A stretch of 61,662 bases of DNA from the IMG/VR virus record IMGVR_UViG_3300042343_000382, positions 1-61,662 of that record; one strand, given 5' to 3'. The position numbers and the translations under genes are program-made. This DNA comes from a virus. This document shows, piece after piece, positions 12,693 to 40,429 of this stretch (its first letter is position 1; every line of letters starts with the position of its first letter). The notes under the pieces were generated by a model that made no database searches, was not told the origin of the DNA, and saw nothing but the letters and a program-made list of their open reading frames with translations.

Positions 12693-13934
12693 TTATCTAC
12701 TTATTTCCTCCCAATCTAATGATGCAACAACTGTATCACTTGCACTATCAGAAGCAATTACAAGTGTAAGTTCAAAAGGCGTTGCTGTTAATCCATTTCT
12801 TTCTAACTGAAACTTAAATAACGCTTCTTTTAAAAGGTCAATCTGACTTGAACCTTGGTTTGTTGCATTAAAAAATCCACTTGCAAGTATTCTACCTCCC
12901 GCAAAAGTAGTTCCTGTTATATTGTATTCTAGAGAAGAGTTTGTTCCTGCACTAACCCAAGTTCCACCTGTTGTGGTTCCTGTTGCTATAAGTTGCCAAT
13001 TATACTTACCTGTAGTAATTGGCATTGCAGAAAGAGCTGAAAGTATTGCAATACCATCTAATCTTGTTGTTTTTAATCGTAAGCTTATTACAGGATAGAA
13101 TGTTCCTGCAGTTCCTAATGTTCTTGGAGAATTAATAGGAATACCAACTGCTTGTTGTAATCCATTAAGTTGGTAGCCACCCTCAGATAGCACAGTAGAG
13201 CATATCTGTTTTAATCTACTTGAACTAGCTGTAGCAGCTGTATTGGTTATTTCATATCGCAGTGGTAATGAAGCTGTTGTAATATATGTAGATGTAATTA
13301 GATTAGCATGCTGAAACTTATGACAAACATGAAAGTTACCATCTATAACAAACCCTATTCTAACTGTACCTACGCCTAACCACTCCAAATCCATAAATAG
13401 AATTTGAGCTTTTGTTAAATCAAGTGTTATTCCACTTGGACCTAAACCATTTAATGGATCAACATTCCAATTTGCTTGAGCAACAGGTGTATTTACTAAT
13501 GAACCTGAAACAGAACTTCTTTCAACAAAAGTTACTGCGCTGTCATTCTGTTCTAAATAATAACCATTAGCTGCCCCATAATAACCTACTCTTTGTCTAA
13601 GTCCTGTCTTAACAGCATTCATTACAAATGTAGATAATACAAGAAGACTTTTACCAGGTTGATATGAAAATACTTTTGTAGTTTCTCTAACTACCTCAGA
13701 ACCTGATGCTGCTGTTACACCTAAGTTAATTAGTCCTTCATTAGCATCAAATGTAGCAGATCCACTTACAGCAGTAGCTGTTGACCATAGTTCATTATCA
13801 TTAAATCTATGACTTGAATCAAATAGTGTAAATGGTTCACTAACTCTTAGTCTACCAAATGCATCCATATTTGGAGAGTTTGCATATGATATTGCTGGAC
13901 TTATTATACTGTAACCTGAATAGTTCTGTGCCAT
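12693..13934 (-). CDS. Virion surface protein of the FGRLRVSEP family
   Basis: 413 residues. Near residue 26 it carries FGRLRVSEPFTLFDS, a motif that recurs at the N-terminus of structural proteins in many aquatic phages. The rest is a long beta-rich, Thr/Ala-rich protein, probably a large jelly-roll or sandwich domain on the virion. It is encoded directly with a small partner (13937-14266). Confidence 0.6.
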   Translation of the reverse strand: MAQNYSGYSIISPAISYANSPNMDAFGRLRVSEPFTLFDSSHRFNDNELWSTATAVSGSATFDANEGLINLGVTAASGSEVVRETTKVFSYQPGKSLLVLSTFVMNAVKTGLRQRVGYYGAANGYYLEQNDSAVTFVERSSVSGSLVNTPVAQANWNVDPLNGLGPSGITLDLTKAQILFMDLEWLGVGTVRIGFVIDGNFHVCHKFQHANLITSTYITTASLPLRYEITNTAATASSSRLKQICSTVLSEGGYQLNGLQQAVGIPINSPRTLGTAGTFYPVISLRLKTTRLDGIAILSALSAMPITTGKYNWQLIATGTTTGGTWVSAGTNSSLEYNITGTTFAGGRILASGFFNATNQGSSQIDLLKEALFKFQLERNGLTATPFELTLVIASDSASDTVVASLDWEEISR

Positions 13935-13936
13935 AG

Positions 13937-14266
13937 TTATGATATTTCAGTACCCCACACCTGAAAGGCTAGACTACTATTTCCTGAATAAACTCTTATT
14001 TTATCTGTTGCTGCTAATGTAACACCTATTGTCGCAATAAATGTATCATTACCTGCAAGAAGTATATCGTAGTAAAGATAGTCTTTATTTGTTGTTGCTG
14101 CACCTCCTTGAGATATACTAACTCTAAATGAAGTTTGTGTAGCTGCTAAGTTGCATATTGATATAGAACTGCACACAGTAGACGTTGCCGCTGGTACAGT
14201 ATATAAATCTGTAGGTGTTGTTGCTGAAGGACTTACCTGCCCTAATATTTTGTATACGTTTGCCAT
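13937..14266 (-). CDS. Small virion beta-sandwich protein
   Basis: 109 residues. The alternating beta pattern (SSISICNLAATQTSFRVSIS and later LLAGNDTFIATIGVTLAATD) is typical of small phage decoration or fibre proteins found beside FGRLRVSEP-type genes. No enzymatic motif is visible. Confidence 0.55.
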   Translation of the reverse strand: MANVYKILGQVSPSATTPTDLYTVPAATSTVCSSISICNLAATQTSFRVSISQGGAATTNKDYLYYDILLAGNDTFIATIGVTLAATDKIRVYSGNSSLAFQVWGTEIS

Positions 14267-14269
14267 AAT

Positions 14270-16429
14270 TTACGATCCCATTAATAAAAAATTTTGTTCA
14301 AATCCAACTGATTGTGCTGTAGCATTTAATGTTCCTCCTGATAAAGAAAGTCCTGTTCCTACAGTTATTTCTTCCATAACACCTGTACCTGCTGTACTTC
14401 TACCAATAAGTTTATTAGTAGCCATAGATGTAGATATATCAGGAGTAGATCCTCCTGATGATGTTATAGGACTTGTTGCGCTTACTGAAGTAACACCTGA
14501 AGTAATAAGACCATCAACATACTCTTTATCTACTAAACTTCTATTAGAATATAAGGCTGAATAGTCTGCAGCGTATTCTATTTTTACATCACTCTCCCAT
14601 TTAACACCTGATATTCCTTTGAGATAATGACTTACCGCTGGGTTTAAATATGATGTTAATGTTTTATTATTACTTAAAACAATATTTCCTGTTGAATAAA
14701 TATCAATAATAGATAAATTACCTCCTTGTATATTGCTTCCAGAGTCTACAAAAAAACCATTGTTATTAGCTGATATTCTTTTAATATTAGACCCTGCACT
14801 TTCAGAATGAAAAGTTAATACTTCATTACCCAATGGATCAAAAAATGACATTGATTTTGTAATACCTGCTATAGATTTTACTTTAATATCTCCCCTTGTC
14901 GCATCTAATATAATTGTAGCGTCAGTAGAGTTATTGTATGCATTTTGCAGTGTTAAATTTGCTGTGGTTACATATGTATTACCTGCTATTTGTTTTACAT
15001 TACCCGAAGTATCTCTCATTAAGAGAAAATCAGATGTTGTTCCTGTATCAGGTGTTTGTGTAAACTTTAACTTTCCTGTAGAAAAAACTCTTAATCCTTC
15101 ATTTACATAAGTAGCTCCTGTTTTAATTGCAAACTCTCCTTTTGATTGTATTTCAAATCCATCTGTTTGATTATCAGAAACTATAAATGATGGTTGCGAA
15201 AACCCTGGGTTTCCCAATATAAAATCAATTTGTGATTGTGCTCTTTGTAAAGAGAACATTGTATTACCATTTATATAAGGTCTTGCAAAATCATTAATAA
15301 CAACAACATTACTTCTTTGAGAAACTTTTGAATTACCAATGGTTGTTGGAGAATTCCATATAGGCAAACGATTAGTAGTACCTACTCCTGTAATACCTGT
15401 AACAGTAGGAGATGATAAAACATACGCTGATCCATTCCAAGAGTAAAAAAATCCTGTATCAAGTGCTATATATATAGTTCCTATAACTCCTGTTACAGGG
15501 AAAGACGCTAAGTCAGGATACTCAACTACGTTATCTTGTGTTAAAAAAGGAACGTCATTAGTAAGCTGCGATGTAAGCGTTGGAATTGTAGGTTTATTAA
15601 GTATCTGATTGTTACCACTTGTTGCATTCCAATCTGCTGGTTGTTGAACAAGCGGATAACCTGCACCTAAATTAGTCCAATATAAAGCATTAGTTGGCAG
15701 CAATGAGTCATTACTGGCTATACATCTGTATACATTACCAAGATACCAAACTACATCTCCTACTACATATTGGTTGTTTGTTATAGCTAAATGGTCTGTT
15801 GTAAATGGTAACGCTACAAGCGTTGGAGCAATTATCTGAGACGATATATAATTTATCAAATCTGTCTGATCCTCTATATCTCCAGTTATACTTCCCCACA
15901 CTGGCGGTGGAATATCCTGAACCTTATCGACCAAGCTAACTAGGTAGTCAAGATCCTCAGATATGAATCCGTTACCAGCCAAGAAATCAACCGTAACAAC
16001 AAAGAAGTTTGTGTTAGGTATCCAAGGCTCTATACTTGTTATCTTGTAGTATCCAAATATGTTTATGTTGCTAGCCTTAGACAGCAAGACCTTCCCGTCT
16101 ACCAAGAAGTCTAGATACTGAGTCACCGTGTTGCCCTTCAGCGTGTTCTTGGCTATAAGAAATGTTGTGATTGCAGAGAAGTTAACCTGAGGTCCTATCT
16201 CTGTCTCGAAAGATATAGTGCCCTGCTCCCTAGCCTCTCCAGGCAGTAGCGTCTGGTACCTGTAACGTATAGACGTTCCAATATCTATAACGTTGTTTTC
16301 GTTAAAGAAGATGGCTAAATTGTTTGGCGTGAAGTTCTTTGTTATCAGAAAGTTCTGAGCATCAGATCCTATCCACTTGTCGTTACCAGTTATGTTAACG
16401 TCCGTACTATACTGACTTATCTTTGTCAT
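14270..16429 (-). CDS. Long tail fibre with MTKISQY adaptor
   Basis: 719 residues. The N-terminal about 40 residues (MTKISQYSTDVNITGNDKWI) match the short collagen-like fibre at 9689, suggesting the same docking site. The central part is repetitive beta. The C-terminal part has SLVDKEYVDGLI and then TNKLIGRSTAGTGVMEEI, motifs common in phage fibres. Codon use shifts within the gene: the last third of the coordinates (the N-terminus) is richer in G/C than the rest, as in a mosaic fibre whose distal part has been exchanged. Confidence 0.65.
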   Translation of the reverse strand: MTKISQYSTDVNITGNDKWIGSDAQNFLITKNFTPNNLAIFFNENNVIDIGTSIRYRYQTLLPGEAREQGTISFETEIGPQVNFSAITTFLIAKNTLKGNTVTQYLDFLVDGKVLLSKASNINIFGYYKITSIEPWIPNTNFFVVTVDFLAGNGFISEDLDYLVSLVDKVQDIPPPVWGSITGDIEDQTDLINYISSQIIAPTLVALPFTTDHLAITNNQYVVGDVVWYLGNVYRCIASNDSLLPTNALYWTNLGAGYPLVQQPADWNATSGNNQILNKPTIPTLTSQLTNDVPFLTQDNVVEYPDLASFPVTGVIGTIYIALDTGFFYSWNGSAYVLSSPTVTGITGVGTTNRLPIWNSPTTIGNSKVSQRSNVVVINDFARPYINGNTMFSLQRAQSQIDFILGNPGFSQPSFIVSDNQTDGFEIQSKGEFAIKTGATYVNEGLRVFSTGKLKFTQTPDTGTTSDFLLMRDTSGNVKQIAGNTYVTTANLTLQNAYNNSTDATIILDATRGDIKVKSIAGITKSMSFFDPLGNEVLTFHSESAGSNIKRISANNNGFFVDSGSNIQGGNLSIIDIYSTGNIVLSNNKTLTSYLNPAVSHYLKGISGVKWESDVKIEYAADYSALYSNRSLVDKEYVDGLITSGVTSVSATSPITSSGGSTPDISTSMATNKLIGRSTAGTGVMEEITVGTGLSLSGGTLNATAQSVGFEQNFLLMGS

Positions 16430-20561: not shown

Positions 20562-21038
20562 ATGAAATTAAGAAAGAAAATAATCATTAAGAACTACCAA
20601 CGCGTTGAGCCGAAGCATGACTGGCTTAAGTACTGGCGCGTTGTAAGGTATTGGGTGTCAGAGTCTTATGGGCTATCCTACCCAGATCTAGAGATGCTCC
20701 TCTTTTTATACTCCGAGGACCTCTTTTCGGAGCACGACTTCGAGAAGTTTGAGAGAATTATGTCATGGGATACGCACAGGTTTAAGAGGCTGGTCGAGGG
20801 AGACTGGATCGTACCCTGGCGTGAGAAGAATGGAAACGAGAAGGCACTCTACACGCTGTCCTTCAAGGGCAAGAGGCTGATAAACGCTGTCTACAAGAAG
20901 CTTAGCGGTGAGGAGGGCATCACCACACACCCAACCAAGAACCCAATCTTTAGAAAGGACGCTGGATACATCGCGCGCGGGTACCGAAAGATGATTCTAG
21001 AGATGAATGAGGCGATACAGAGGGCTAAGCAGTATTAG
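20562..21038 (+). CDS. Winged-helix DNA-binding regulator
   Basis: 158 residues, basic. Residues about 38-105 match a MarR-like winged helix: helices YPDLEMLLFLYSEDLF and FERIMSWDTHRFKRLVEGDW, then a wing (EKALYTLSFKGKRLIN). It is the only plus-strand gene in this part of the map and is transcribed divergently from the late region across a 156-nt spacer with a palindromic promoter. It is also convergent with groES. It is a good candidate for the early-to-late switch. Confidence 0.65.
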   Translation: MKLRKKIIIKNYQRVEPKHDWLKYWRVVRYWVSESYGLSYPDLEMLLFLYSEDLFSEHDFEKFERIMSWDTHRFKRLVEGDWIVPWREKNGNEKALYTLSFKGKRLINAVYKKLSGEEGITTHPTKNPIFRKDAGYIARGYRKMILEMNEAIQRAKQY

Positions 21039-21406: not shown

Positions 21407-22990
21407 TTACGCTCGTGTTAAGGTTATAATCGCGTTGGTGCTTAGTATCGTGGTGGCTACACTGACCGCGTTCTTCAGCGCGTTCTTCGTCACCTTCAGC
21501 GGATCTATTATCCCCATCCCGAACATATCACCGTAGCACTCATTCTTCACGTCGTAACCGTGCCCATGATCGTTCACGCTCGACATCACCTCGTAGCCGT
21601 CCTTACCCGCGTTGTCCATTATCTGCAGCAGCGGTGACTGTATCGCCCAGCCAACGATCTGCATCGCGGTGTACTGGTCGTGGCTTATGTGCTCCATATT
21701 TTCATCCGCGTACTCAATAATATCAGACGCTATATTAAACAGCGCCACACCACCACCTGGTAGTATGCCCTCCTCTAGTGCCGACCTTACAGCACAGACA
21801 GCGTCATCAACCCTGTCGTACCTCTCCTTCTGCTCCACGTCCGAGCCACCTCCAACGTATATAACTCCAACACCACCTGTAAGTGACGCTATACGCTCCT
21901 TTAGGGCGTCCCTCTCGTTCTTCCTCGTTGAGTTGTTGTGCTGTATCCATAATTGTTCTACACGCTCTCTAATCGCCTCATTTGAGGTCTCGCTTCGAAC
22001 TAAGACTGTGCTGTCCCTTCCGACGATCACCCTGTCTGCCTTCCCGAGGTGGTCTATTGTGATTAGACTCAGGTCATCACCAGTCTGCTCGCTGAAGTAC
22101 TTAGCACCAACCGCAAGCGCGATGTCCTGCATCAGCTCCTGCTGCTTGTAGCCAAACTGTGGCGGCTGAATGTTACAGAACTTCAGGTTGTTATGAGCCA
22201 CGTTTGCAGCCAGCGTGTTGATCACGTTGCCAGTACACGGTCCAATTATCAATAGCTTCTTCTGCCCGTTTATGATCGGCTTCAGCACGTTCTCTATAGA
22301 CAGTATGTTACTTATCTCCTGGTCGGTCACCATAATGTACACGTCCTCCATTATGCACTCCTCCTTCTTCATGTCATTCACGAACAGCCTGCTCGTGTAA
22401 CCACGTCCTATCTTTATACCATTAGTCACCTCGCTGTAGGTCTTATCCGTCTGCGAGTTCTCCACTGTAACGATGCCCTCCTTACCGACCTTGTTGTACG
22501 CGTCAGCGATAATAGCACCCAGCTCCCTGTCGTTATTAGCAGATATAGAGGCTACGTCCTTGAGCGTCTTACCACTCACCTTCTTGCTCATCTTCTCCAG
22601 GCTCTTTACAACACCATCGACAACAGTGTTCACGTTACGAAGCACCTCCGTCGGGTTGTTCCTCTCCGTGATGAACTCGTTGCCCCTTGTGACCATAGCC
22701 TCAGTCAGCACAATCGCTGTGGTTGTACCGTCACCTGCGCTGGTTGCAGTCCTGTCGGCCGCCTCCTTCATCATACGCACCGCAAGGTTCTCAACTGGAT
22801 CCTTTAGGTTTATAGATTTAGCAACCGTGACACCGTCCTTTGTAATAGTTATACCGTTAGTGTGGTTCTGTGATTCAATTAGCACCGTCTTACCTCTCGG
22901 TCCTAACGTGCTCTTTACCGCCTTGCTGATCGTGGTTATACCATTTACCAGCTTGTCTCTTCCTTCCTTGTCAAATACTAAGTCGTTCAT
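21407..22990 (-). CDS. groEL: Chaperonin GroEL
   Basis: 527 residues, close to the full bacterial length. Key elements are present: the nucleotide-binding LGPRGKTVLI (about 29-38) and GDGTTTAIVL (about 85-94), GGGVALF near 405, and the catalytic Asp region VDDAVCAVRSALEEG near 390. The apical domain with GRGYTSRLFVND near 195 is complete. The C-terminal Gly-Gly-Met tail is absent (ends STNAIITLTRA). The gene is relatively GC-rich compared with its surroundings. It probably folds capsid or tail proteins with the phage GroES. Confidence 0.95.
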   Translation of the reverse strand: MNDLVFDKEGRDKLVNGITTISKAVKSTLGPRGKTVLIESQNHTNGITITKDGVTVAKSINLKDPVENLAVRMMKEAADRTATSAGDGTTTAIVLTEAMVTRGNEFITERNNPTEVLRNVNTVVDGVVKSLEKMSKKVSGKTLKDVASISANNDRELGAIIADAYNKVGKEGIVTVENSQTDKTYSEVTNGIKIGRGYTSRLFVNDMKKEECIMEDVYIMVTDQEISNILSIENVLKPIINGQKKLLIIGPCTGNVINTLAANVAHNNLKFCNIQPPQFGYKQQELMQDIALAVGAKYFSEQTGDDLSLITIDHLGKADRVIVGRDSTVLVRSETSNEAIRERVEQLWIQHNNSTRKNERDALKERIASLTGGVGVIYVGGGSDVEQKERYDRVDDAVCAVRSALEEGILPGGGVALFNIASDIIEYADENMEHISHDQYTAMQIVGWAIQSPLLQIMDNAGKDGYEVMSSVNDHGHGYDVKNECYGDMFGMGIIDPLKVTKNALKNAVSVATTILSTNAIITLTRA

Positions 22991-22993
22991 AGA

Positions 22994-23119
22994 TTAAAAT
23001 GTAAATTGAATGTGTATACACAGGATGTAGATGTTTAACTCTGAGTAGTCAAAGTCTTCGTCCTTGGCGAACCAAGATAAACCAAACATAAGATAGTTTG
23101 GTGCAATTGTAATTTCCAT
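22994..23119 (-). CDS. Small protein encoded ahead of groEL
   Basis: 41 residues (starts MEITIAPNYLMFGLSWFAKD, ends IHIQFTF). It is the first gene after the candidate promoter and ends 3 nt before the groEL start. It is aromatic-rich and probably a small beta protein. It may be a co-regulated partner or simply a leader-proximal gene. Function unknown. Confidence 0.6.
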   Translation of the reverse strand: MEITIAPNYLMFGLSWFAKDEDFDYSELNIYILCIHIQFTF

Positions 23120-23146: not shown

Positions 23147-23154
23147 CAAATATA
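23147..23154 (-). promoter_or_regulatory. Candidate promoter box of the groEL operon (TATATTTG)
   Basis: The minus strand reads TATATTTGCATC, a match to the Bacteroidota -7 element, 27 nt before the 41-residue gene. It lies just downstream (in the minus direction) of the 104-bp element at 23197-23300. Confidence 0.4.
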
Positions 23155-23196: not shown

Positions 23197-23300
23197 TTAT
23201 GTCAGAAATGACGTTTTACTTCTCCCTATTCTCTTATATATATATTTTATATATATTTTATTTTTTTTTCTGTAGAAATAGGAAAAAAATCAGAATACTA
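23197..23300 (-). repeat. Outward-facing inverted regulatory repeat, left copy
   Basis: Read on the minus strand this is an imperfect copy of 26067-26169. Shared blocks include TAGTATTCTGATTTTTT, TATATATAAGAGAATAG, and CTGACATAA at the end, in the same order and nearly the same spacing. It ends 78 nt before the start of the groEL operon. The matching copy lies 52 nt before a rightward gene start. The conserved polarity towards the downstream gene suggests a duplicated promoter/activator element. Confidence 0.75.
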
Positions 23301-24317
23301 ACATAGAGGTAGTTAAAGTATTAATAATCAAGAGGTTATCTCATGACAAACTTTTTTAAAATCGTCAGGAGACGTCATTTTTAGATAAAAAACGTCGTAC
23401 GTCAATGGTAGCAAGGGATGAGGTAAAAAAAATAGGTTAGAAATGTGTGGTATTTGGGTTATATATAGGATTTGCGTGACGATTCGCTGTAGGAAAGCGA
23501 CTACAATTTCGACACGGGGGTTCCGATTTCAGAATTTTCCTACAGAATTTTCAGGTTTTTGTGGGACGGTACCTTCCTGCAGGGTGACCTACATTTTACG
23601 TCCCTATGGTTACTTCTTATGTATGGTATCTTACTATACATACTACATATATTTGTAGGGTGAACCTTACATTTATTTTGTAGGAAAGAAACTAAACTTA
23701 TCCGACAACAAACGGTTACAAACGACAACAAACGTCTTACTAATTGCCACAACATAAACCCTAACTCTTAAGGTTTATCTTACAATGAAAGGTAACGATA
23801 AAGTTTATCAATTGGCTTATAGAAATAATCTATGATAGGTTTTATCTATGGTAAAAGACATTTCGATAGGCAATTACCTTCATCGCTATGCACACGCGCG
23901 CACGCAATACTATATATACAAATTACCTAAACAACATAACTAACTGATTTACAGTAAATTAAAATAGTAAGAATTAAACTTGTAGGAAAGTACTGCATTT
24001 GTAATCCTTGCGAAGCCCCGTAAACACTAGGAAAGTGAAAATAATTTAAAAAAACTTCAAAAAAAATTTGGTAGTTTAATTGTTGTCGCCGTATGTTTGC
24101 AATGTCAAAACGAAACAACTAGTAATTTTGACAAGCAAAGTTTAATTGCTTCAACCTAAAACCGTCGGGACTACAGACGTACAAAGTAGCGGGAGTCAAT
24201 AAAGACTATAAAATTGGCTGTAGTTAGTCTGAAATAAGAGGTCAAAGTAATCCTTGAAGTTCGAAACTACGATACTACTAAGAAGGTCAACTTGTTTGGC
24301 TACATAAGTAAAAGGTC
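23301..24317. other. About 1 kb non-coding region with short repeats
   Basis: I see no convincing gene here on either strand. It contains a perfect 10-bp inverted repeat (CTGTAGGAAA at 23487, TTTCCTACAG at 23536), GTAGGAAAG at 23489, 23680 and 23982, two GGGTGA(A)CC(T)TACATTT repeats, and GTAATCCTTG at 24001 and 24247. It also contains an alternating CACACGCGCGCACGC tract near 23890. This composition, between outward and rightward operons, would fit an origin or a long untranslated leader. Confidence 0.5.
23579..23675. repeat. Pair of related 18-21-bp repeats
   Basis: GCAGGGTGACCTACATTT at 23579-23596 and GTAGGGTGAACCTTACATTT at 23655-23674 are near-identical direct repeats 76 bp apart within the non-coding region. 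They may be protein-binding sites or RNA stem halves. Confidence 0.55.
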
Positions 24318-24375
24318 GTTAACCGTAGCAAAGTGAGTGCTTTGCCTGAAGAGTCGAAAACGACGAAACGGTAAC
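24318..24375 (+). ncRNA. Type III hammerhead self-cleaving ribozyme
   Basis: All core elements are present in order. Stem III 5' strand ends CCGT at 24326 with cleavage base A24327. Stem I is GCAAAG / CTTTGC with loop TGAGTG (24328-24345). The catalytic core CTGAAGA is at 24346-24352. Stem II is GTCG-AAAA-CGAC (24353-24364), GAAA is at 24365-24368, and the stem III 3' strand ACGGTAAC ends at 24375. Stem III pairs over 5 bp, then a bulged A, then 3 bp. G10.1-C11.1 is conserved. Cleavage would fall 65 nt before the start at 24393, in the leader of the first rightward gene. Confidence 0.85.
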
Positions 24376-24392
24376 TTTAAAACTTTATTAAA

Positions 24393-24506
24393 ATGAAACA
24401 ATTTATTAAAAGAAACGAGGGTGAAATTTATTTTACCATTACAGTAATGGCGTTCGCCATATTATTAATAGTACTAGACTTAAATAACATTATTAAAATC
24501 AACTAA
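24393..24506 (+). CDS. Small single-pass membrane protein
   Basis: 37 residues with one hydrophobic segment (about 13-29, ITVMAFAILLIVLDL) after a charged N-terminus. It is the first gene after the hammerhead ribozyme and ends 1 nt before the next start. Possibly an early protein acting at the host membrane. Confidence 0.55.
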   Translation: MKQFIKRNEGEIYFTITVMAFAILLIVLDLNNIIKIN

Positions 24507-24507
24507 G

Positions 24508-25086
24508 ATGAGAAAGTTAACTAAATATCAACTACAAAAAATATCTAGAAACCTTGATAAATATTTCAATCTAGCAAGTGAAGACGATATAAAAAATGGC
24601 TTGCTTTGGTACCAACAAGCCAACGACATTTGCAAAGATATAGCGCAAAAATACGGGACGAGTACATTTATTGCTTCAGGCGTTATCAGCGCGCTTAGTC
24701 CTAGAAACAAATGGGCAAAAAATATACAGGACGCGTATACAGTTTTCGAGGCCGTACAAAATAACGTCGAAGCCGTTGACACAAAAGTGAGTACGTTTCA
24801 CACGAACAAGTTCAAAGCCTTTGCTATAGCGCAGGGCAAGGTAACGATAACGAGCGAAAGCAATAAGACCTTCGCGTTTTGTGAGAATATAGCGCACTTA
24901 AACGAGGACTTTGTAACGGTTGACGTTTGGCACCTTAGGGCTTGTTTCGACATGACAATGGGCTCAATCGGGGACTTGGCCTATAAACAACTGCAAAGCA
25001 TAACACTAAGCAAGGCTAAGAAGTTAGGTATAAGAGGCTTCGAATATCAGGCAATAATTTGGAACTCAGTTCAAAACAATTTTTAA
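24508..25086 (+). CDS. HhH-GPD-like phage protein
   Basis: 192 residues. GVISALSPRNKWAKNIQDAY near residue 58 and FAFCENI with VTVDVWHLRA near residue 145 resemble a family of phage proteins proposed to have a DNA-glycosylase (HhH-GPD) fold, including the conserved Asp before the WH pair. It may act in DNA base processing or as a non-catalytic DNA binder. Family known, function not. Confidence 0.5.
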   Translation: MRKLTKYQLQKISRNLDKYFNLASEDDIKNGLLWYQQANDICKDIAQKYGTSTFIASGVISALSPRNKWAKNIQDAYTVFEAVQNNVEAVDTKVSTFHTNKFKAFAIAQGKVTITSESNKTFAFCENIAHLNEDFVTVDVWHLRACFDMTMGSIGDLAYKQLQSITLSKAKKLGIRGFEYQAIIWNSVQNNF

Positions 25087-25087
25087 T

Positions 25088-25246
25088 ATGAACTACGAAA
25101 CATACGAACAAAAGTACAAGGGCACGACAAGGACTATCTTTCGTGCCTATATAGGTAAAGGCTTCATAGAAGCGCAAAGCCTCGAAAGATTAAACGAACT
25201 AATTAATAACCACGCCCCAATAAAAGAGGGTACATTTAAAGACTAA
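25088..25246 (+). CDS. Small protein, unknown function
   Basis: 52 residues (MNYETYEQKYKGTTRTIFRA at the start), one helix-turn-helix-sized unit without a recognised family. It starts 1 nt after the preceding stop, so it is probably translated from the same message. Confidence 0.5.
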   Translation: MNYETYEQKYKGTTRTIFRAYIGKGFIEAQSLERLNELINNHAPIKEGTFKD

Positions 25247-25251
25247 ACACA

Positions 25252-25437
25252 ATGGACAAATCGTATTCAATTTTTTGCATAGCAAGTCAGTTACTAGAGG
25301 GTAACGAGAGAGAACTAGACGTAGTTTGGGAAACGGCAACCAAACTATATGACGAATTTTTAGAGAGTGAGTTCAACGATTATAATCAATCGGAACTAGA
25401 CTGCATTAATGAATTTTTAACAACTAAAAACAAATGA
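25252..25437 (+). CDS. Small acidic protein, unknown function
   Basis: 61 residues, acidic and helical, ending TTKNK. It overlaps the next gene by 4 nt (ATGA). Small acidic early proteins of phages often inhibit host enzymes, but nothing here identifies a target. Confidence 0.55.
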   Translation: MDKSYSIFCIASQLLEGNERELDVVWETATKLYDEFLESEFNDYNQSELDCINEFLTTKNK

Positions 25438-25775
25438 AAACATTACAGATTAACATCGGACTAAACAACAACACAATGACTGCAGAACAAGTCGTAGACT
25501 ATATCGCAAGCAATAAAGAGTATCGACTTATGGCTTATCAGATAGTTGATGCAGAGTTTAACGGAAACGTCGAGCCTACCTTTGTAGGACTTATGGAGTA
25601 CAACTATTCAAGGCAGTCAAAGATACTGCAGGACTTCGAGAATATAGCCTCAGTCATGACTCAAGAAAGCATAGCTATTAAAACAGACAAAATGCAGGTC
25701 TTAGCATTCAATCCTAGTTACAATGGTGACGGGTACCAATTCGACGAACAATACTTTAAAAGCATTAAACTATGA
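25434..25775 (+). CDS. Early protein, unknown function
   Basis: 113 residues with no recognised domain. It overlaps both neighbours by 4 nt, which indicates translational coupling in the early cluster. Confidence 0.55.
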   Translation: MKTLQINIGLNNNTMTAEQVVDYIASNKEYRLMAYQIVDAEFNGNVEPTFVGLMEYNYSRQSKILQDFENIASVMTQESIAIKTDKMQVLAFNPSYNGDGYQFDEQYFKSIKL

Positions 25776-25969
25776 ACATAAACATAAACATACTAGAGGT
25801 AGCCTCAGAGCTAGCGCATAAGAAAATAGAAGAGCACTTCGAGTTTGAGGCCAAGAAAATATATGAGTGGGTTTCAGATGAAGAGAGCAGGTACACGGAA
25901 GAGGCGCAAGAATTATTCAACGAGTGGTACGACTACTACTACGATTTTTTACTTAAACTTAAAGAATAG
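25772..25969 (+). CDS. Small acidic helical protein, unknown function
   Basis: 65 residues, Glu- and Tyr-rich (EEAQELFNEWYDYYYDFL near the C-terminus), probably all helix. It is the last gene before a 251-nt non-coding stretch that has several hairpins and the second regulatory repeat. Confidence 0.55.
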   Translation: MNININILEVASELAHKKIEEHFEFEAKKIYEWVSDEESRYTEEAQELFNEWYDYYYDFLLKLKE

Positions 25970-26066
25970 TAAAGTTATGCTAGAAAATCTAGCATGGAAT
26001 GACGCGAGAAAATAAAATCGTCATAGCCTTGAGGTCAATGGAATCAAGACTTAACGTTTTATATGC

Positions 26067-26169
26067 TAGTATTCTGATTTTTTCTTTACTTTCTAGGTAA
26101 AAAAAATAAATAAATAAATAAAAATATATATAAGAGAATAGAGAGAATAAAATCGACATTCTGACATAA
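26067..26169 (+). repeat. Outward-facing inverted regulatory repeat, right copy
   Basis: On the plus strand it starts TAGTATTCTGATTTTTT, has an A/T tract and TATATATAAGAGAATAG, and ends CTGACATAA. It is an inverted imperfect copy of 23197-23300 and lies 52 nt before the gene at 26221. The non-coding DNA before it (25970-26066) holds hairpins ATGCTAG/CTAGCAT, ATGACG/CGTCAT and CTTGA/TCAAG. Confidence 0.75.
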
Positions 26170-26220
26170 CAATTTAAACTAATTACAAACGATAAACTAT
26201 CGTTTAAAAAAAGAAAAACA

Positions 26221-26385
26221 ATGATAACAATAAACAACAAAACTTGGACGGAGCAGGAACTTATTCAATTAATAGATGACGCTCAACTTATCGCAGAATT
26301 TATTCGTATGGACTTAAGTACAATAGAAGACAACGAAGACGTAATGGCTTTAGAAACCTATACTAACTTTTCAAACAAATACTAA
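26221..26385 (+). CDS. Small acidic protein, unknown function
   Basis: 54 residues, acidic, helical (MITINNKTWTEQELIQLIDD at the start). It is the first gene downstream of the right regulatory repeat and ends 1 nt before the next gene. Confidence 0.55.
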   Translation: MITINNKTWTEQELIQLIDDAQLIAEFIRMDLSTIEDNEDVMALETYTNFSNKY

Positions 26386-31468: not shown

Positions 31469-31567
31469 GTGTAGTGTGGCGGAATGGTAAACGCTAAGCG
31501 TAGTAAGGTAAGCTGACAGACGACGTAAAACAACTTGCCGTGCAGGTTCGAATCCTGCCACTACACC
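31469..31567 (+). tRNA. tRNA-like gene 1 with abnormal anticodon region
   Basis: A 7-8-bp acceptor stem (GTGTAGTG / CACTACAC), a Leu-like D arm (TGGCGGAATGGTAAACGC) and a perfect T arm (GCAGG-TTCGAAT-CCTGC) are present. The 47 nt between D and T arms contain no 5-bp/7-nt anticodon arm; the one strong stem is GGTAAG/CTTGCC with a 21-nt loop. I cannot assign an anticodon. It may be a degenerate or specialised tRNA. There is no encoded CCA beyond CC-A after the stem. Confidence 0.5.
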
Positions 31568-31642: not shown

Positions 31643-32002
31643 GGGGGTGACTGGTTTTGACAGGTTACCAATAATTAATACAATCAGCCAGAGAGACAAC
31701 TGTAAACTAAGGTGAATTTTTTAAATGGCAATACAAACACTCGTGTAGTATCTCTAGGAGACAACGCACAAATTGAAGCTAACATGAACAAAGTATTCTC
31801 TTTATTGAGAGAAGAAGTTGGTGTAGCAGCCTAAACATTCAAAGGATTTCTCTGTTAGATTAAACAGAGTGGTGGTTTCGCTGACTTAATTGTCGGCCCT
31901 AGAGTGCGCCTGTAGACTCTTTAAATAAGTATAGGGACAAAAGCTGTATAAATTGTATTAATGAACGTAGTTTGGACGTGGGTTCGACTCCCACCACCTC
32001 CA
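31643..32002 (+). ncRNA. ssrA: tmRNA (ribosome rescue RNA)
   Basis: The 5' end GGGGGTGACTGGTTTTGACA and the 3' end with T arm GTGGG-TTCGACT-CCCAC and CACCTCC are classic tmRNA halves that pair over 7 bp. The central reading frame runs to TAA at 31832-31834 and ends EEVGVAA, a typical degradation-tag tail. If the resume codon is GGA at 31757, the tag has 25 residues beginning GDNAQIEA; a start at 31751 is also possible. The tag frame contains a TTCTCT/AGAGAA hairpin. CCA is not encoded. No smpB was found, so host SmpB would be used. Confidence 0.93.
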
Positions 32003-32127
32003 CTAATGCAGTTCAATTCTGCTCGGTTACTGAGAATTGGTATCTAAATGAGGCTCGAAACCTCCTCGTATGTCGAGATTAGTAGCGCTAGGTGGCGTCA
32101 GTATGACAGCTTGGAAAGACAAGCAAA

Positions 32128-33036: not shown

Positions 33037-33374
33037 ACAAAAATAAAATGAAGGCAATATCGGAGGCTTACGATAGGATTCGAGCGATAGAGAACGACAT
33101 ACGGATCATACAGGCTACAGCCGAGAAGGTGCTTGACAAGAACACCGTCTCCTGGCTGTCACTAGACTTTGAGGACGACCTCCTTAATAGTATGCAGACG
33201 CAGACCTGGACTACTCAAACTACAACAGGATCGTTCTTTATGTCTAGTGAGGTGAAGCCTGAGGAGGACAACGGATTTAGTATGGACATACCCGACACGG
33301 TTACCCTTGAAATTCTTGGGGTTATATTAAGATACAAACAACAACTTATTCAAAATGAAAATAACAATATTTAA
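33033..33374 (+). CDS. Protein ahead of primase-helicase, unknown function
   Basis: 113 residues with an N-terminal helix (AISEAYDRIRAIENDIRIIQ) and a Thr-rich middle. It overlaps the primase-helicase start by 20 nt, so the two are probably translationally coupled. Confidence 0.55.
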   Translation: MNKNKMKAISEAYDRIRAIENDIRIIQATAEKVLDKNTVSWLSLDFEDDLLNSMQTQTWTTQTTTGSFFMSSEVKPEEDNGFSMDIPDTVTLEILGVILRYKQQLIQNENNNI

Positions 33375-35757
33375 GGACATCCGAAGCACCTCAACACCGT
33401 TCTATAGACACATAGACGTGGTGCTTGAGAGGATAAGAACAGGCTCAAGCAGGGAGCTTATCGAGAGCATACAGCAGGAGCAGGACAAGTCAACCCGTAA
33501 CGAGTTGAAGAAGTCACTCCCAGCGATATGCTTCTCGGGTATATTCACCAAGCGTGCCGATAACTCAATAACTGAGCACAGCGGACTGATCTGTCTAGAC
33601 TTTGATGGATATGCCAGTAAGAAGGAGATGATGGCTGAGAAGCGCTCTATTGCGTCAGACGAGTATGTTATGTCTGTCTTCGTGTCTCCGTCTGGGGATG
33701 GACTGAAGGTTCTTGTTAAGATACCACAGGACATAGACAACCACGTGAGGTACTTCAACGCGCTTGAGAGGCACTTCAACTCACAATACTTCGACACCAC
33801 GTCCAAGAACATATCGAGGGTGTGCTACGAGTCGTACGACGAGGAGGTATACATCAACAAGGAGTCTAAGGTCTGGGAGCAGATGCACGAGGACGAGTTC
33901 GTTGAGATCCAGAAGGCATCGAGCGCACCAACTATTCCGATTACCAACGAGAACAAGATCGTCGACATACTCATAAAGTGGTGGACATCTAAGTACGGTA
34001 TGGTGGACGGTGAGCGTAACCACAACGTGTACATACTGGCTGCAGCCTTCAACGACTACGGGATAAACAAGTCGCTGGCTGAGTACATAATAGGTCAGTT
34101 CGAGCAGACCGACTTCCCTATGTCTGAGATTAAGATGACCATAAACTCAGCCTACAGCCACACCAATAAGTTTGGCACGAAGTACTACGAGGACACGGCA
34201 CGTGTGTCTCAGCTTAAGAAGAAGGTGAAGGACGGGGCGACAGCCAAGCAGATTAAGTCTGAGATGACTGACATTGAGGAGGGTGTCATCGACGCGGTCT
34301 TGGATAAGATTGATAGCGACACAAAGCGTTTCTGGACCAAGAATGACAAGGGTGCTGTGAGCATTATTCACTTCCTATTCAAGGAGTTCTTGGAGGATAA
34401 CGGGTTCTATAAGTTCTACCCTGAGAACACCAAGACGTTTGTCTTTGTAAAGGTCACAAACAACCTGATAGACAACACGTCGGAGGATGAGATCAAGGAC
34501 TTCGTTCTTGCGTACCTTGAGAATATGGACGACCTGTCGGTGTACAACTACTTCGCGGACAAGACTAGGTTCTTTAAGGAGGACTTCCTGTCACTGCTTG
34601 GTTCGGTGGACGTATACTTCGTGGAGGACACGGCAGACACGGCTCACCTGTACTACAACAACTGCGCGGTCAAGGTGACCAAGGATAAGGTGGACATAAT
34701 AGACTACATAGACCTTGAGGGTTACATATGGATGGACCAGGTGATAGACAGAGACTTCGCGATATGTGAGGTCACCGAGTGCGACTTCAAGACCTTCGTC
34801 TCCAACATAGCGGGTGATGACTCCCAGAGGGTTAGCTCGATGGAGAGCACGATAGGGTTCCTGATGCACGGCTACAAGAACCCGTCATACTGCCCAGCGA
34901 TCATCCTGAACGATGAGGTTATATCTGATAATCCTGAGGGTGGTACGGGTAAGGGGCTGTTTGTCAACGCGTTGTCTAAGATCAAGAAGACGGTCACCAT
35001 AGATGGTAAGTCGTTTAACTTTGACAAGTCGTTCGCCTATCAGACAGTCAACGTAGGTACACAGGTGCTGTGTTTTGATGACGTTAAGAAGCACTTCGAC
35101 TTCGAGCGTCTGTTCAGCGTTGTTACTGAGGGGCTTACGGTTGAGAAGAAGAACAAGGACGCGATCAAGCTGCCTTTCAACCGCTCACCTAAGATTATGA
35201 TCACCACTAACTACGCCATCAAGGGCAAGGGGAACTCGTTCGAGAGGCGGAAGTGGGAGCTAGAGTTCAGGCAGTTCTACAGCAAGGAGTTCACACCATT
35301 CGTTGAGTTTGGACGTATGCTGTTCAACGACTGGGACGAGGAGGAGTGGTGCAAGTTCGACAACTATATGATAAATAATTTGAAGTCATATCTAGATACT
35401 GGACTAATAAAGAGTACATTTGTAAACCTTAAGGTTCGTAAGTTGTCGGCAGAGACCTGTCACGAGTTCATCGACTGGTGTGGTATGATAGACGGTAACT
35501 CTCACAACGACAAGATGCGATTGGATGAGCTGTTATATAAACAAGACCTTTACCTGGACTTCATTATGGACAACCCAGACTTTGCACCAAAGGCTAAGAT
35601 GACCATCAGTAGGACTCTGTTTTACAAGTGGTTAGTATCTTACGGACTGTATGTGACTGGCGTTACTCCACTTGAGGGTAGGGATGCCAACGGCAGGTGG
35701 ATTAAGTTCATCACTAAGGATGGAGACACGCATAACACTGAAGAGTTTAAGTTTTGA
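33355..35757 (+). CDS. Primase-helicase (VirE N-terminal/BT4734-type plus D5-like ATPase)
   Basis: 800 residues. Residues about 1-175 match the VirE/BT4734-type primase-like domain (SGLICLDFDGY, then VFVSPSGDGLKVLVKI). A primase C-terminal helical part follows near 220-275. The D5-like helicase ATPase has Walker A NPEGGTGKGLF near 526, Walker B VLCFDDVKKHF near 571 and the KIMITTNY sensor near 612. It would open and prime the replication fork. No DNA polymerase is encoded, so it probably recruits the host replisome. Confidence 0.85.
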   Translation: MKITIFKDIRSTSTPFYRHIDVVLERIRTGSSRELIESIQQEQDKSTRNELKKSLPAICFSGIFTKRADNSITEHSGLICLDFDGYASKKEMMAEKRSIASDEYVMSVFVSPSGDGLKVLVKIPQDIDNHVRYFNALERHFNSQYFDTTSKNISRVCYESYDEEVYINKESKVWEQMHEDEFVEIQKASSAPTIPITNENKIVDILIKWWTSKYGMVDGERNHNVYILAAAFNDYGINKSLAEYIIGQFEQTDFPMSEIKMTINSAYSHTNKFGTKYYEDTARVSQLKKKVKDGATAKQIKSEMTDIEEGVIDAVLDKIDSDTKRFWTKNDKGAVSIIHFLFKEFLEDNGFYKFYPENTKTFVFVKVTNNLIDNTSEDEIKDFVLAYLENMDDLSVYNYFADKTRFFKEDFLSLLGSVDVYFVEDTADTAHLYYNNCAVKVTKDKVDIIDYIDLEGYIWMDQVIDRDFAICEVTECDFKTFVSNIAGDDSQRVSSMESTIGFLMHGYKNPSYCPAIILNDEVISDNPEGGTGKGLFVNALSKIKKTVTIDGKSFNFDKSFAYQTVNVGTQVLCFDDVKKHFDFERLFSVVTEGLTVEKKNKDAIKLPFNRSPKIMITTNYAIKGKGNSFERRKWELEFRQFYSKEFTPFVEFGRMLFNDWDEEEWCKFDNYMINNLKSYLDTGLIKSTFVNLKVRKLSAETCHEFIDWCGMIDGNSHNDKMRLDELLYKQDLYLDFIMDNPDFAPKAKMTISRTLFYKWLVSYGLYVTGVTPLEGRDANGRWIKFITKDGDTHNTEEFKF

Positions 35758-39743: not shown

Positions 39744-39975
39744 GCAACAAATACAATCCAAGAGAATTAAACAGCTCGAGGCAGAGGGATACTACGTCTT
39801 GAAGCTCCAGAAGACAAACAAGAACGGCATACCTGACATCATAGCTTTAAAGGAAAACGAGATACTATTCTCGGAGATTAAGACACCTAAGGGCAAGCTG
39901 TCTGAGATACAGAAATACAGAATGAAAGAATTAGAGAGTTACGGATTTAAAACAGAACTATACAATGGAGAATAG
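39736..39975 (+). CDS. VRR-NUC nuclease
   Basis: 79 residues, a minimal stand-alone VRR-NUC domain. The core is GIPDIIALKENEILFSEIKT (PD ... ExK) followed by LSEIQKYRMKELESYG. Such nucleases are linked to Holliday junction or flap cleavage. It overlaps the next gene by 11 nt. Confidence 0.85.
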   Translation: MTEQQIQSKRIKQLEAEGYYVLKLQKTNKNGIPDIIALKENEILFSEIKTPKGKLSEIQKYRMKELESYGFKTELYNGE

Positions 39976-40429
39976 AGTAGAGAATTTATTAAACATCATA
40001 TCTAGTGAGTATGGTGTAGACATTTTTAGTAGTAGCAGGGAGAGGGACTGTGTTGAGGCGAGGGCGATATTTTCAAAGATCCTTTACTCGCACAACCACC
40101 TTGGGTATACAAAGATCGGTAGGTTGCTTGGTAAGAACCACGCGACTATCTATCACTACATCAAGAACTTTGATACCTGGAGTAAGTACGACGATAGGTT
40201 AAAATCAAAGTACCTTAACATCTTAAGCGTATTCTCAAGGGATATGGAGATAGGAAGCGTTGAGGATACTAGAAAGATATGGTACGAGAATATCATACTA
40301 TCAACAAAAATTGAAAAGCTAGAGGCTAAGCTGTCAAGTGAACTATACGCTTTACTTGACAAGGTTCCAGAGAACAAGGCGTTCCTAGTTTACGAGAGAC
40401 TTGAATCAATAATCAAGATGAACTGTTGA
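39965..40429 (+). CDS. DnaA domain IV-like DNA-binding protein
   Basis: 154 residues. Residues about 23-75 match the DnaA C-terminal helix-turn-helix: SRERDCVEARAIFSKIL, then YTKIGRLLGKNHATIYHYIK, equivalent to the DnaA-box recognition signature. The rest is helical, and no ATPase domain is present. It could recruit host replication proteins to a phage origin or compete with host DnaA. Confidence 0.75.
   Translation: MENRVENLLNIISSEYGVDIFSSSRERDCVEARAIFSKILYSHNHLGYTKIGRLLGKNHATIYHYIKNFDTWSKYDDRLKSKYLNILSVFSRDMEIGSVEDTRKIWYENIILSTKIEKLEAKLSSELYALLDKVPENKAFLVYERLESIIKMNC

Follow-up and report, generated by a model that had tools for sequence, protein, structure and literature searches.

A duplicated and inverted iteron module beside groEL as a putative replication origin of a podovirus-like phage

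Results

The virus record IMGVR_UViG_3300042343_000382 was analysed over its whole length of 61,662 bases, here called the window, and carries two inverted, outward-facing copies of a short element, copy A on the groEL side and copy B inside the early operon (Table 1). We propose that this element is probably a replication origin, duplicated and inverted in the subclade to which the window belongs, and that the short repeats within it (iterons) are putative initiator sites. The initial annotation of this stretch had named replicator ends among its alternatives, and a replicator is the best fitting of the readings that it offered.

That annotation had also reported the inverted, outward-facing repeat and had asked for its alignment against random sequence. 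The repeat proved real, as local alignment of the two flanks gave one block of 112 columns at ~83% identity with a score of 125, far beyond the maximum of 39 (mean 23) in 500 dinucleotide-preserving shuffle pairs. A separate repeat search recovered the same pair (arms 23207-23316 and 26051-26160, 74% without gaps), and copy A searched against the record matched only itself and copy B (84%, E 2e-24), without a third copy. The weaker similarity thought to reach further amounts to a weak upstream extension, and the likeness otherwise ends at both CATAA ends. Each copy had been placed 50-80 nucleotides (nt) before the first gene of an outward operon. The distances hold for the nearest open reading frames (ORFs), as copy A lies 77 nt from the ATG of a 41-aa ORF (22993-23119) and copy B ends 52 nt before an ATG at 26222, but groEL itself (22990) is 207 nt from copy A, and copy B lies within the rightward early block, not at its head. 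The same-strand ORFs upstream of copy B start at 24394 and 24508, preceded by a consensus promoter, TTTG-N21-TATGTTTG (24067-24099).

Relatives were gathered by GroEL as 64 loci from IMG/VR (loci are labelled L, records G or W; MW202828 is L003 and the elemo record is W02), and copies were sought in them with a two-sequence nhmmer profile. All six relatives holding both flanks (L008, L010, L013, L014, L016, L032) carry both copies, inverted and outward-facing, with 2,017-3,649 bases between them (2,724 in the window, nhmmer bounds), and in all six the spacer genes are oriented as in the window. The truncated contigs L007, L009, L012 and L015 hold one copy each, and MW202828 a weak single copy. 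The stretch 26013-26182 around copy B is 84-96% identical to five relatives (L008, L010, L013, L014, L016). From 17 cropped copies (L003 and L009 left out), mean identity is 0.78 among A copies (n=45 pairs) and 0.88 among B copies (n=21), while A and B show little sign of concerted evolution (0.756 within a genome, n=7, versus 0.739 between genomes, n=63).

The relatives display the layout of the element most clearly. In L014, L015, L016 and L003, the ordered blocks of the initial annotation prove to be tandem ATGTCGATTTT repeats about 9-10 bp apart, which lie beside an AT-rich tract, with CGACAT-type inverted copies across it. The full module runs in the order iterons (set1), palindrome-like core, iterons (set2), AT tract and inverted iterons (set3) in L003, L016, L021, L022 and L024, and less regularly in L019, L020, L026, L027 and L028; it was also found in L017/L018 and L031/L035/L037. 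Whole-record matches to the iteron TGTCGATTT fall almost exclusively within modules: 5/5 in G001, 6/6 in G007, 4/4 in G008, 2/2 each in G003 and G002, 3/4 in MW202828, 2/3 in G004, and 1/1 in both G006 and the window, where the exact word at 26150 (copy B set3) is its sole occurrence in the record. The single match of G009 lies outside the module, and 10 of the 15 records scanned had any match.

The layout is kept while the sequence of the iterons changes. Distant relatives (GroEL about 60%) keep the order of the parts upstream of groEL with other words, assigned by eye: GTGTCGA in L021, AATGTC[GA]A in L022/L023, GTGTTGATT in L027, TTGAGCATA in L020, AAAATGTT in L026, TTATGTTA in L028 and ATTCCAG in L019. 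A core like CTGATTATCAG/TTGATTATTAA, searched as an exact pattern, stands near the module in 16 of 28 examined (window, L003, L010, L012, L013, L014, L015, L016, L017, L018, L019, L021, L022, L023, L027, L028); the pattern was not matched near the module in L008, L020, L024, L025, L026, L029, L031, L032, L033, L035, L037 and L051. Nor is the module bound to groEL: in L017/L018 (TGTAGGTTTT) it lies about 1.7 kb away, and in L031/L035/L037 (AATGTTA/ATGTTGATTTT) it lies 4.5-5.7 kb away among the early genes, with none seen near groEL.

Clustering of the iteron words in one 320-bp window had a corrected P <1e-3 in 14 of the 20 records or loci tested and P of 0.0098-0.043 in four (G002, G009, L026, L028), and was not significant in the window and L012; these values are optimistic because the words were picked by eye from the region itself. 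Of 18 loci in an automatic scan for top 7-mers, five (L014, L017, L018, L020, L027) had the module window in first rank and 13 did not. Few AT tracts reach 36 bp with no more than one G/C (0-5 per record), and the tracts of both modules are among totals of 3 in the window, G001, G002 and G007, 4 in G003 and 2 in G008. A further automatic scan, for inverted words across AT tracts, was too strict for ranking modules and served to show this rarity. G011/L051 were excluded from the module counts, their repeats being indistinct; at about 22175-22210 of G011, an AT tract with inverted TAATGTTGA on both sides lies just upstream of the primase-helicase gene and is possibly a relocated module. In L003, eight or nine GTTAACGACA-type words lie upstream of groEL at 13251-15751, mostly outside the module.

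The primase-helicase was found in 15 of the 16 module-bearing records examined (window, W01, G001-G010, G012, G014, G015; partial in G003 and G006), and the sixteenth, G013, is a 35.5-kb fragment without it. The window's protein matches BT4734-like_N and DUF5906, with weak PriCT_1 and P4-family matches (TIGR01613, P4 family, E 7.6e-4, below cut-off). Its AlphaFold model is poor overall (pLDDT 62.8, pTM 0.36), but the C-terminus (residues about 700-788) is modelled better, as a winged-helix-like domain with block pLDDT mostly 62-89. The best solved Foldseek matches were AsfvPrimPol (E 1.5e-9) and the SaPI5 primase-helicase (E 4.4e-7), with the low TM-scores expected of a poor model.

Two other proteins were considered as binders. 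PF08299, the DnaA-domain-IV family, occurs in 12 of 19 records; the gene slot after a 79-aa nuclease-like ORF, which it fills in the window (39965-40429), is occupied by a helix-turn-helix (HTH) protein in most of the records examined, but these proteins fall into unrelated kinds: the majority are DnaA-IV-like, whereas G012 has a two-HTH protein and G014/G015 have another HTH. The DnaA-IV protein was therefore demoted as a candidate and rejected as a universal iteron binder. It had no match in PDB by phmmer, and the iteron TGTCGATTT is unlike the DnaA box, TGTGGATAA. The MarR-like protein is modelled at pLDDT 82.5 and resembles MarR/AbfR in Foldseek (from E 2.4e-3, probability 1.00, none <1e-3); it may be a candidate binder of the palindromic core.

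The initial annotation had favoured a duplicated early promoter or activator site. A duplicated cis-acting element with putative protein sites is indeed present, but the early promoter was not borne out. The box TAnnTTTG, the Bacteroidetes -7 motif, follows copy A within 130 nt in all 12 cases and copy B in 1 of 7, with about 0.11 expected per stretch. The A copies lie 24-54 nt upstream of it, at a varying spacing, and no such box was found inside the repeated element. As the box lies outside the element and on the groEL side only, the element is not itself a promoter; the box directly past copy A recalls Bacteroidetes TAnnTTTG promoters, and its place outside the repeat and its absence after copy B set the arrangement apart from them. 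A promoter within the element was rejected, sigma-70-type matches being near background (17 found versus 14.4 expected), and no Rfam family reached its gathering score near the copies.

Table 1. Positions of the module parts and of related genes in the window
Feature	Position	Strand	Basis
Copy A (set2, AT-rich tract, inverted set3), groEL side	23197..23305	-	Alignment; nhmmer; kept in loci of 11 relatives
Copy B, inside early operon	26062..26169	+	Alignment; in all 6 relatives holding the region
Copy A set2, degenerate tandem iteron pair (TATGTTAG / TATTCTGAT)	23289..23305	-	Paired by eye, on position, with the TATGTCGATTATGTCGATTT of relatives
Copy A AT-rich tract, candidate unwinding element	23232..23271		One of 3 tracts in the 61,662 bases that reach 36 bp with no more than one G/C
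Copy A set3, two inverted iterons (ATGTCAGAAATGACG on + strand)	23199..23213		Position weight matrix (PWM) score 10.0 for site at 23198
Palindrome-like core TTGATTATTAA between set1 and set2	23321..23331	-	Motif match; similar core in relatives with different iterons
Degenerate set1 region (CGTC/GACG-type sites) beyond copy A	23340..23409		Homologous to the ATGTCGATTTT arrays in L014/L016; weakly developed in the window
TATATTTG, Bacteroidetes-type -7 box for groEL operon	23147..23154	-	TAnnTTTG within 130 nt in 12/12 A copies
Copy B AT-rich tract	26097..26135		AT-tract scan
Copy B set3, two overlapping iterons AATGTCGATTTT and TATGTCAGAATG	26149..26168	-	PWM scores 15.2 and 9.3
TATGACGATTTT, set1-like site upstream of copy B	26014..26025	-	PWM 9.6; similar site in relatives' B copies
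Primase-helicase, proposed initiator	33355..35757	+	BT4734-like_N/PrimPol, PriCT_1 trace, DUF5906/P4-type helicase, C-terminal winged-helix-like domain
Small protein with HTH resembling DnaA domain IV, alternative candidate for binding the sites	39965..40429	+	PF08299 E 1.4e-8, above cut-off
MarR-like winged-helix protein adjoining groES	20562..21038	+	AlphaFold; Foldseek
groEL	21407..22990	-	Gene search

The record encodes a virion structural protein family, a Sak-like annealing protein and an exonuclease VIII-like protein besides the primase-helicase, and its blocks are a leftward one of groEL-groES followed by more leftward genes, and a rightward one of early genes. Among annotated records the closest are MW202828 (podovirus, Manatee Spring; GroEL 59%) and then the Flavobacterium Elemovirus phages (GroEL about 39%), in which groEL-groES lies elsewhere, among late genes and opposite to its neighbours. 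A phage-encoded transfer-messenger RNA (tmRNA) gene with a predicted tag peptide lies at 31643-32005 (+) (Rfam RF00023, 97.7 bits), and a tRNA-like match lies near it at 31470-31566.

Within the spacer, the consensus promoter is followed by a conserved noncoding leader (24067-24395, +) ahead of the first early ORFs; its part 24100-24395 is 71% shared with the elemo phages. The consensus fold of the leader, drawn from 6 sequences of which three are near-identical elemo rows, comprises 45 pairs, and in 13 of these both partners change. The single-sequence folding energy of the leader is unremarkable (z -0.42). The core of a hammerhead ribozyme consists of a GUA cleavage triplet, CUGANGA, GAAA and three stems. 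A motif of this kind lies at the 3' end of the leader (24316-24376, +), with the GUA triplet, stem I GCAAAG/CUUUGC, CUGAAGA, stem II GUCG/CGAC, GAAA and a stem III, and scores 16.2 bits with Rfam Hammerhead_1, below the 34-bit gathering score. In a scripted scan of the loci the motif was present in 10 distinct sequences of the family, including the elemo phages, at most once per locus and with compensatory stem changes.

Discussion

We propose that each copy is the core of an iteron-type origin. An AT-rich unwinding tract of roughly 40-65 bp would be flanked on one side by initiator sites of about 9 bp in head-to-tail tandem and on the other by a second, inverted tandem pair. The initiator would most likely be the primase-helicase, binding these sites through its C-terminal winged-helix domain as in SaPI/PICI Rep proteins (of Staphylococcus aureus pathogenicity islands and phage-inducible chromosomal islands); once assembled at the two iteron sets it would open the AT tract and load a pair of helicase rings, so that replication would start there. 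Most of the family showed a single module, usually directly before the groEL (late-operon) promoter; in the window's subclade it is duplicated, a second and inverted copy lying in the early operon at a distance of 2.0-3.6 kb. That the module occurs away from groEL, and that B copies lack an adjacent promoter box, supports reading it as an origin. This reading is further favoured by the layout in relatives, the clustering of iteron words and of exact TGTCGATTT, the rarity of such AT tracts, the fold matches of the primase-helicase and the joint occurrence of this protein with the module: it was not found in elemo or G016, and the parts of these that were checked showed no module. Two iteron sets flanking an AT-rich region, as in SaPI/PICI origins, are present in relatives, and in the window by homology only.

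Several observations weigh against an origin bound by the primase-helicase. In the window itself the iterons are degenerate and show no enrichment, the pattern being invisible from the window alone. The module lies 7.2 kb (B) and 10.0 kb (A) upstream of the primase-helicase and not directly downstream of rep as in SaPIs. The C-terminus of the protein does not covary with iteron type, since W01, which shares ATGTCGATTT with the window clade, is no closer to it there than are G010 or G012 with other iterons. The absence of the module from elemo and G016 is itself a partial result, as elemo was covered over about 25 kb by PWM and 1.4 kb by eye, and G016 through L066. GC skew follows the coding strand, with which it is confounded, and has no turn at the module in G014/G015. 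Finally, A copies always stand beside a promoter-like box, as a regulatory site would.

A variant of the proposal, which we regard as doubtful, is that copy A is the origin and copy B a second cis-acting site, either an accessory replication site like crr of phage P4 or a titration site. Copy B is without the palindromic core and a full set1, is found only in the window subclade and together with A, and is the more uniform of the two, all of which would suit such a site. Against this, L031/L035/L037 carry a module in the early-gene region and none was seen beside groEL, so that this position is apparently able to serve alone.

The main rival, rather unlikely in our judgement, is a transcriptional control array, in which a phage activator or repressor (DnaA-IV-like, MarR-like or other) would act on the iterons to control the groEL/late promoter, and through copy B the early genes. 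Every A copy is upstream of TAnnTTTG, although no -33 TTTG is evident by eye in the window; the leftward operon is headed by groEL; and a MarR-like gene adjoins groES, with a DnaA-IV-like gene also present. However, 6 of 7 B copies have no such box, the spacing to the box varies where it is present, and the module can lie kilobases from groEL in L017/L018 and L031/L035/L037. An operator needs no inverted sets around an AT-only tract, and MarR sites are palindromic and bound by a dimer, whereas the iterons are asymmetric. Recombination sites flanking an invertible 2.8-kb segment, as the initial annotation had considered, or attP arms are highly improbable: the inverted pair has repeated arm-like sites, and a sequence like that bound by integration host factor (IHF) was seen by eye near copy A, but the spacer orientation is identical in 7 of 7 genomes, which argues against frequent inversion, copies A and B have diverged and show hardly any trace of exchange, and Pfam Phage_integrase (PF00589) has no match in the 19 records, serine recombinases not having been searched for.

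Returning to the module as an origin, we tentatively suggest, with less assurance than for the origin itself, that this phage family uses a SaPI/PICI-type origin whose iterons turn over while its layout is kept, and that in one subclade two inverted copies form a paired origin beside the chaperonin/late operon, coupling the start of replication to late transcription. A layout of iterons on both sides of an AT tract has so far been described for parasitic phage-satellite DNA. Its presence in autonomous phages, if true, would suggest a source of satellite origins, or a general signature of primase-helicase initiators, and would provide a sequence rule for finding origins in uncultured phages. 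The relatives with changed iterons would offer a natural experiment on the evolution of initiator specificity, and the presence of a duplicated inverted pair allows a model of two origins or two sites to be tested directly.

Among open-licence PMC papers we found none on the replication origins of these phages, and the comparison is therefore with other systems. Satellite phage P4 has two cis-acting, iteron-bearing sites kilobases apart, ori and crr. The phages described here resemble it in having two such sites and a primase-helicase as putative initiator; P4 alpha and its ori site are mentioned in PMC6092414. In layout they differ from it, as their copies are inverted and an AT tract belongs to each. 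Papillomavirus and SV40-type origins likewise have inverted initiator sites by AT-rich DNA and a helicase initiator, a likeness of layout. A passage of PMC7581432 draws this helicase analogy, and places the recognition domain of those initiators at the N-terminus.

The closest parallel is with SaPI/PICI origins and their Pri-Rep proteins, in which two iteron sets also flank an AT-rich region and the primase-helicase is of the archaeo-eukaryotic primase (AEP)-D5/SaPI5 type. Passages of PMC7581432 describe SaPI Rep as recognising its iteron origin through the C-terminal domain, the C-terminal domain of the helicase Cch2 of the staphylococcal cassette SCCmec as binding a putative origin, and the origin of known SaPIs as lying directly downstream of rep; the satellite PLE (phage-inducible chromosomal island-like element), according to a passage of PMC7145576, uses a different initiator family. 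The module described here differs in that it lies 7-10 kb from the primase-helicase, stands just upstream of groEL in many relatives, is duplicated and inverted in one subclade and has iterons whose sequence turns over. It also belongs to a phage and not to a satellite: no integrase match was found, and instead of a satellite gene set without virion genes the record has a virion structural protein family. Because of these virion genes, the lack of an integrase match, the position not downstream of rep and the duplication, the module is not a PICI; by analogy, it would nevertheless work like a PICI origin.

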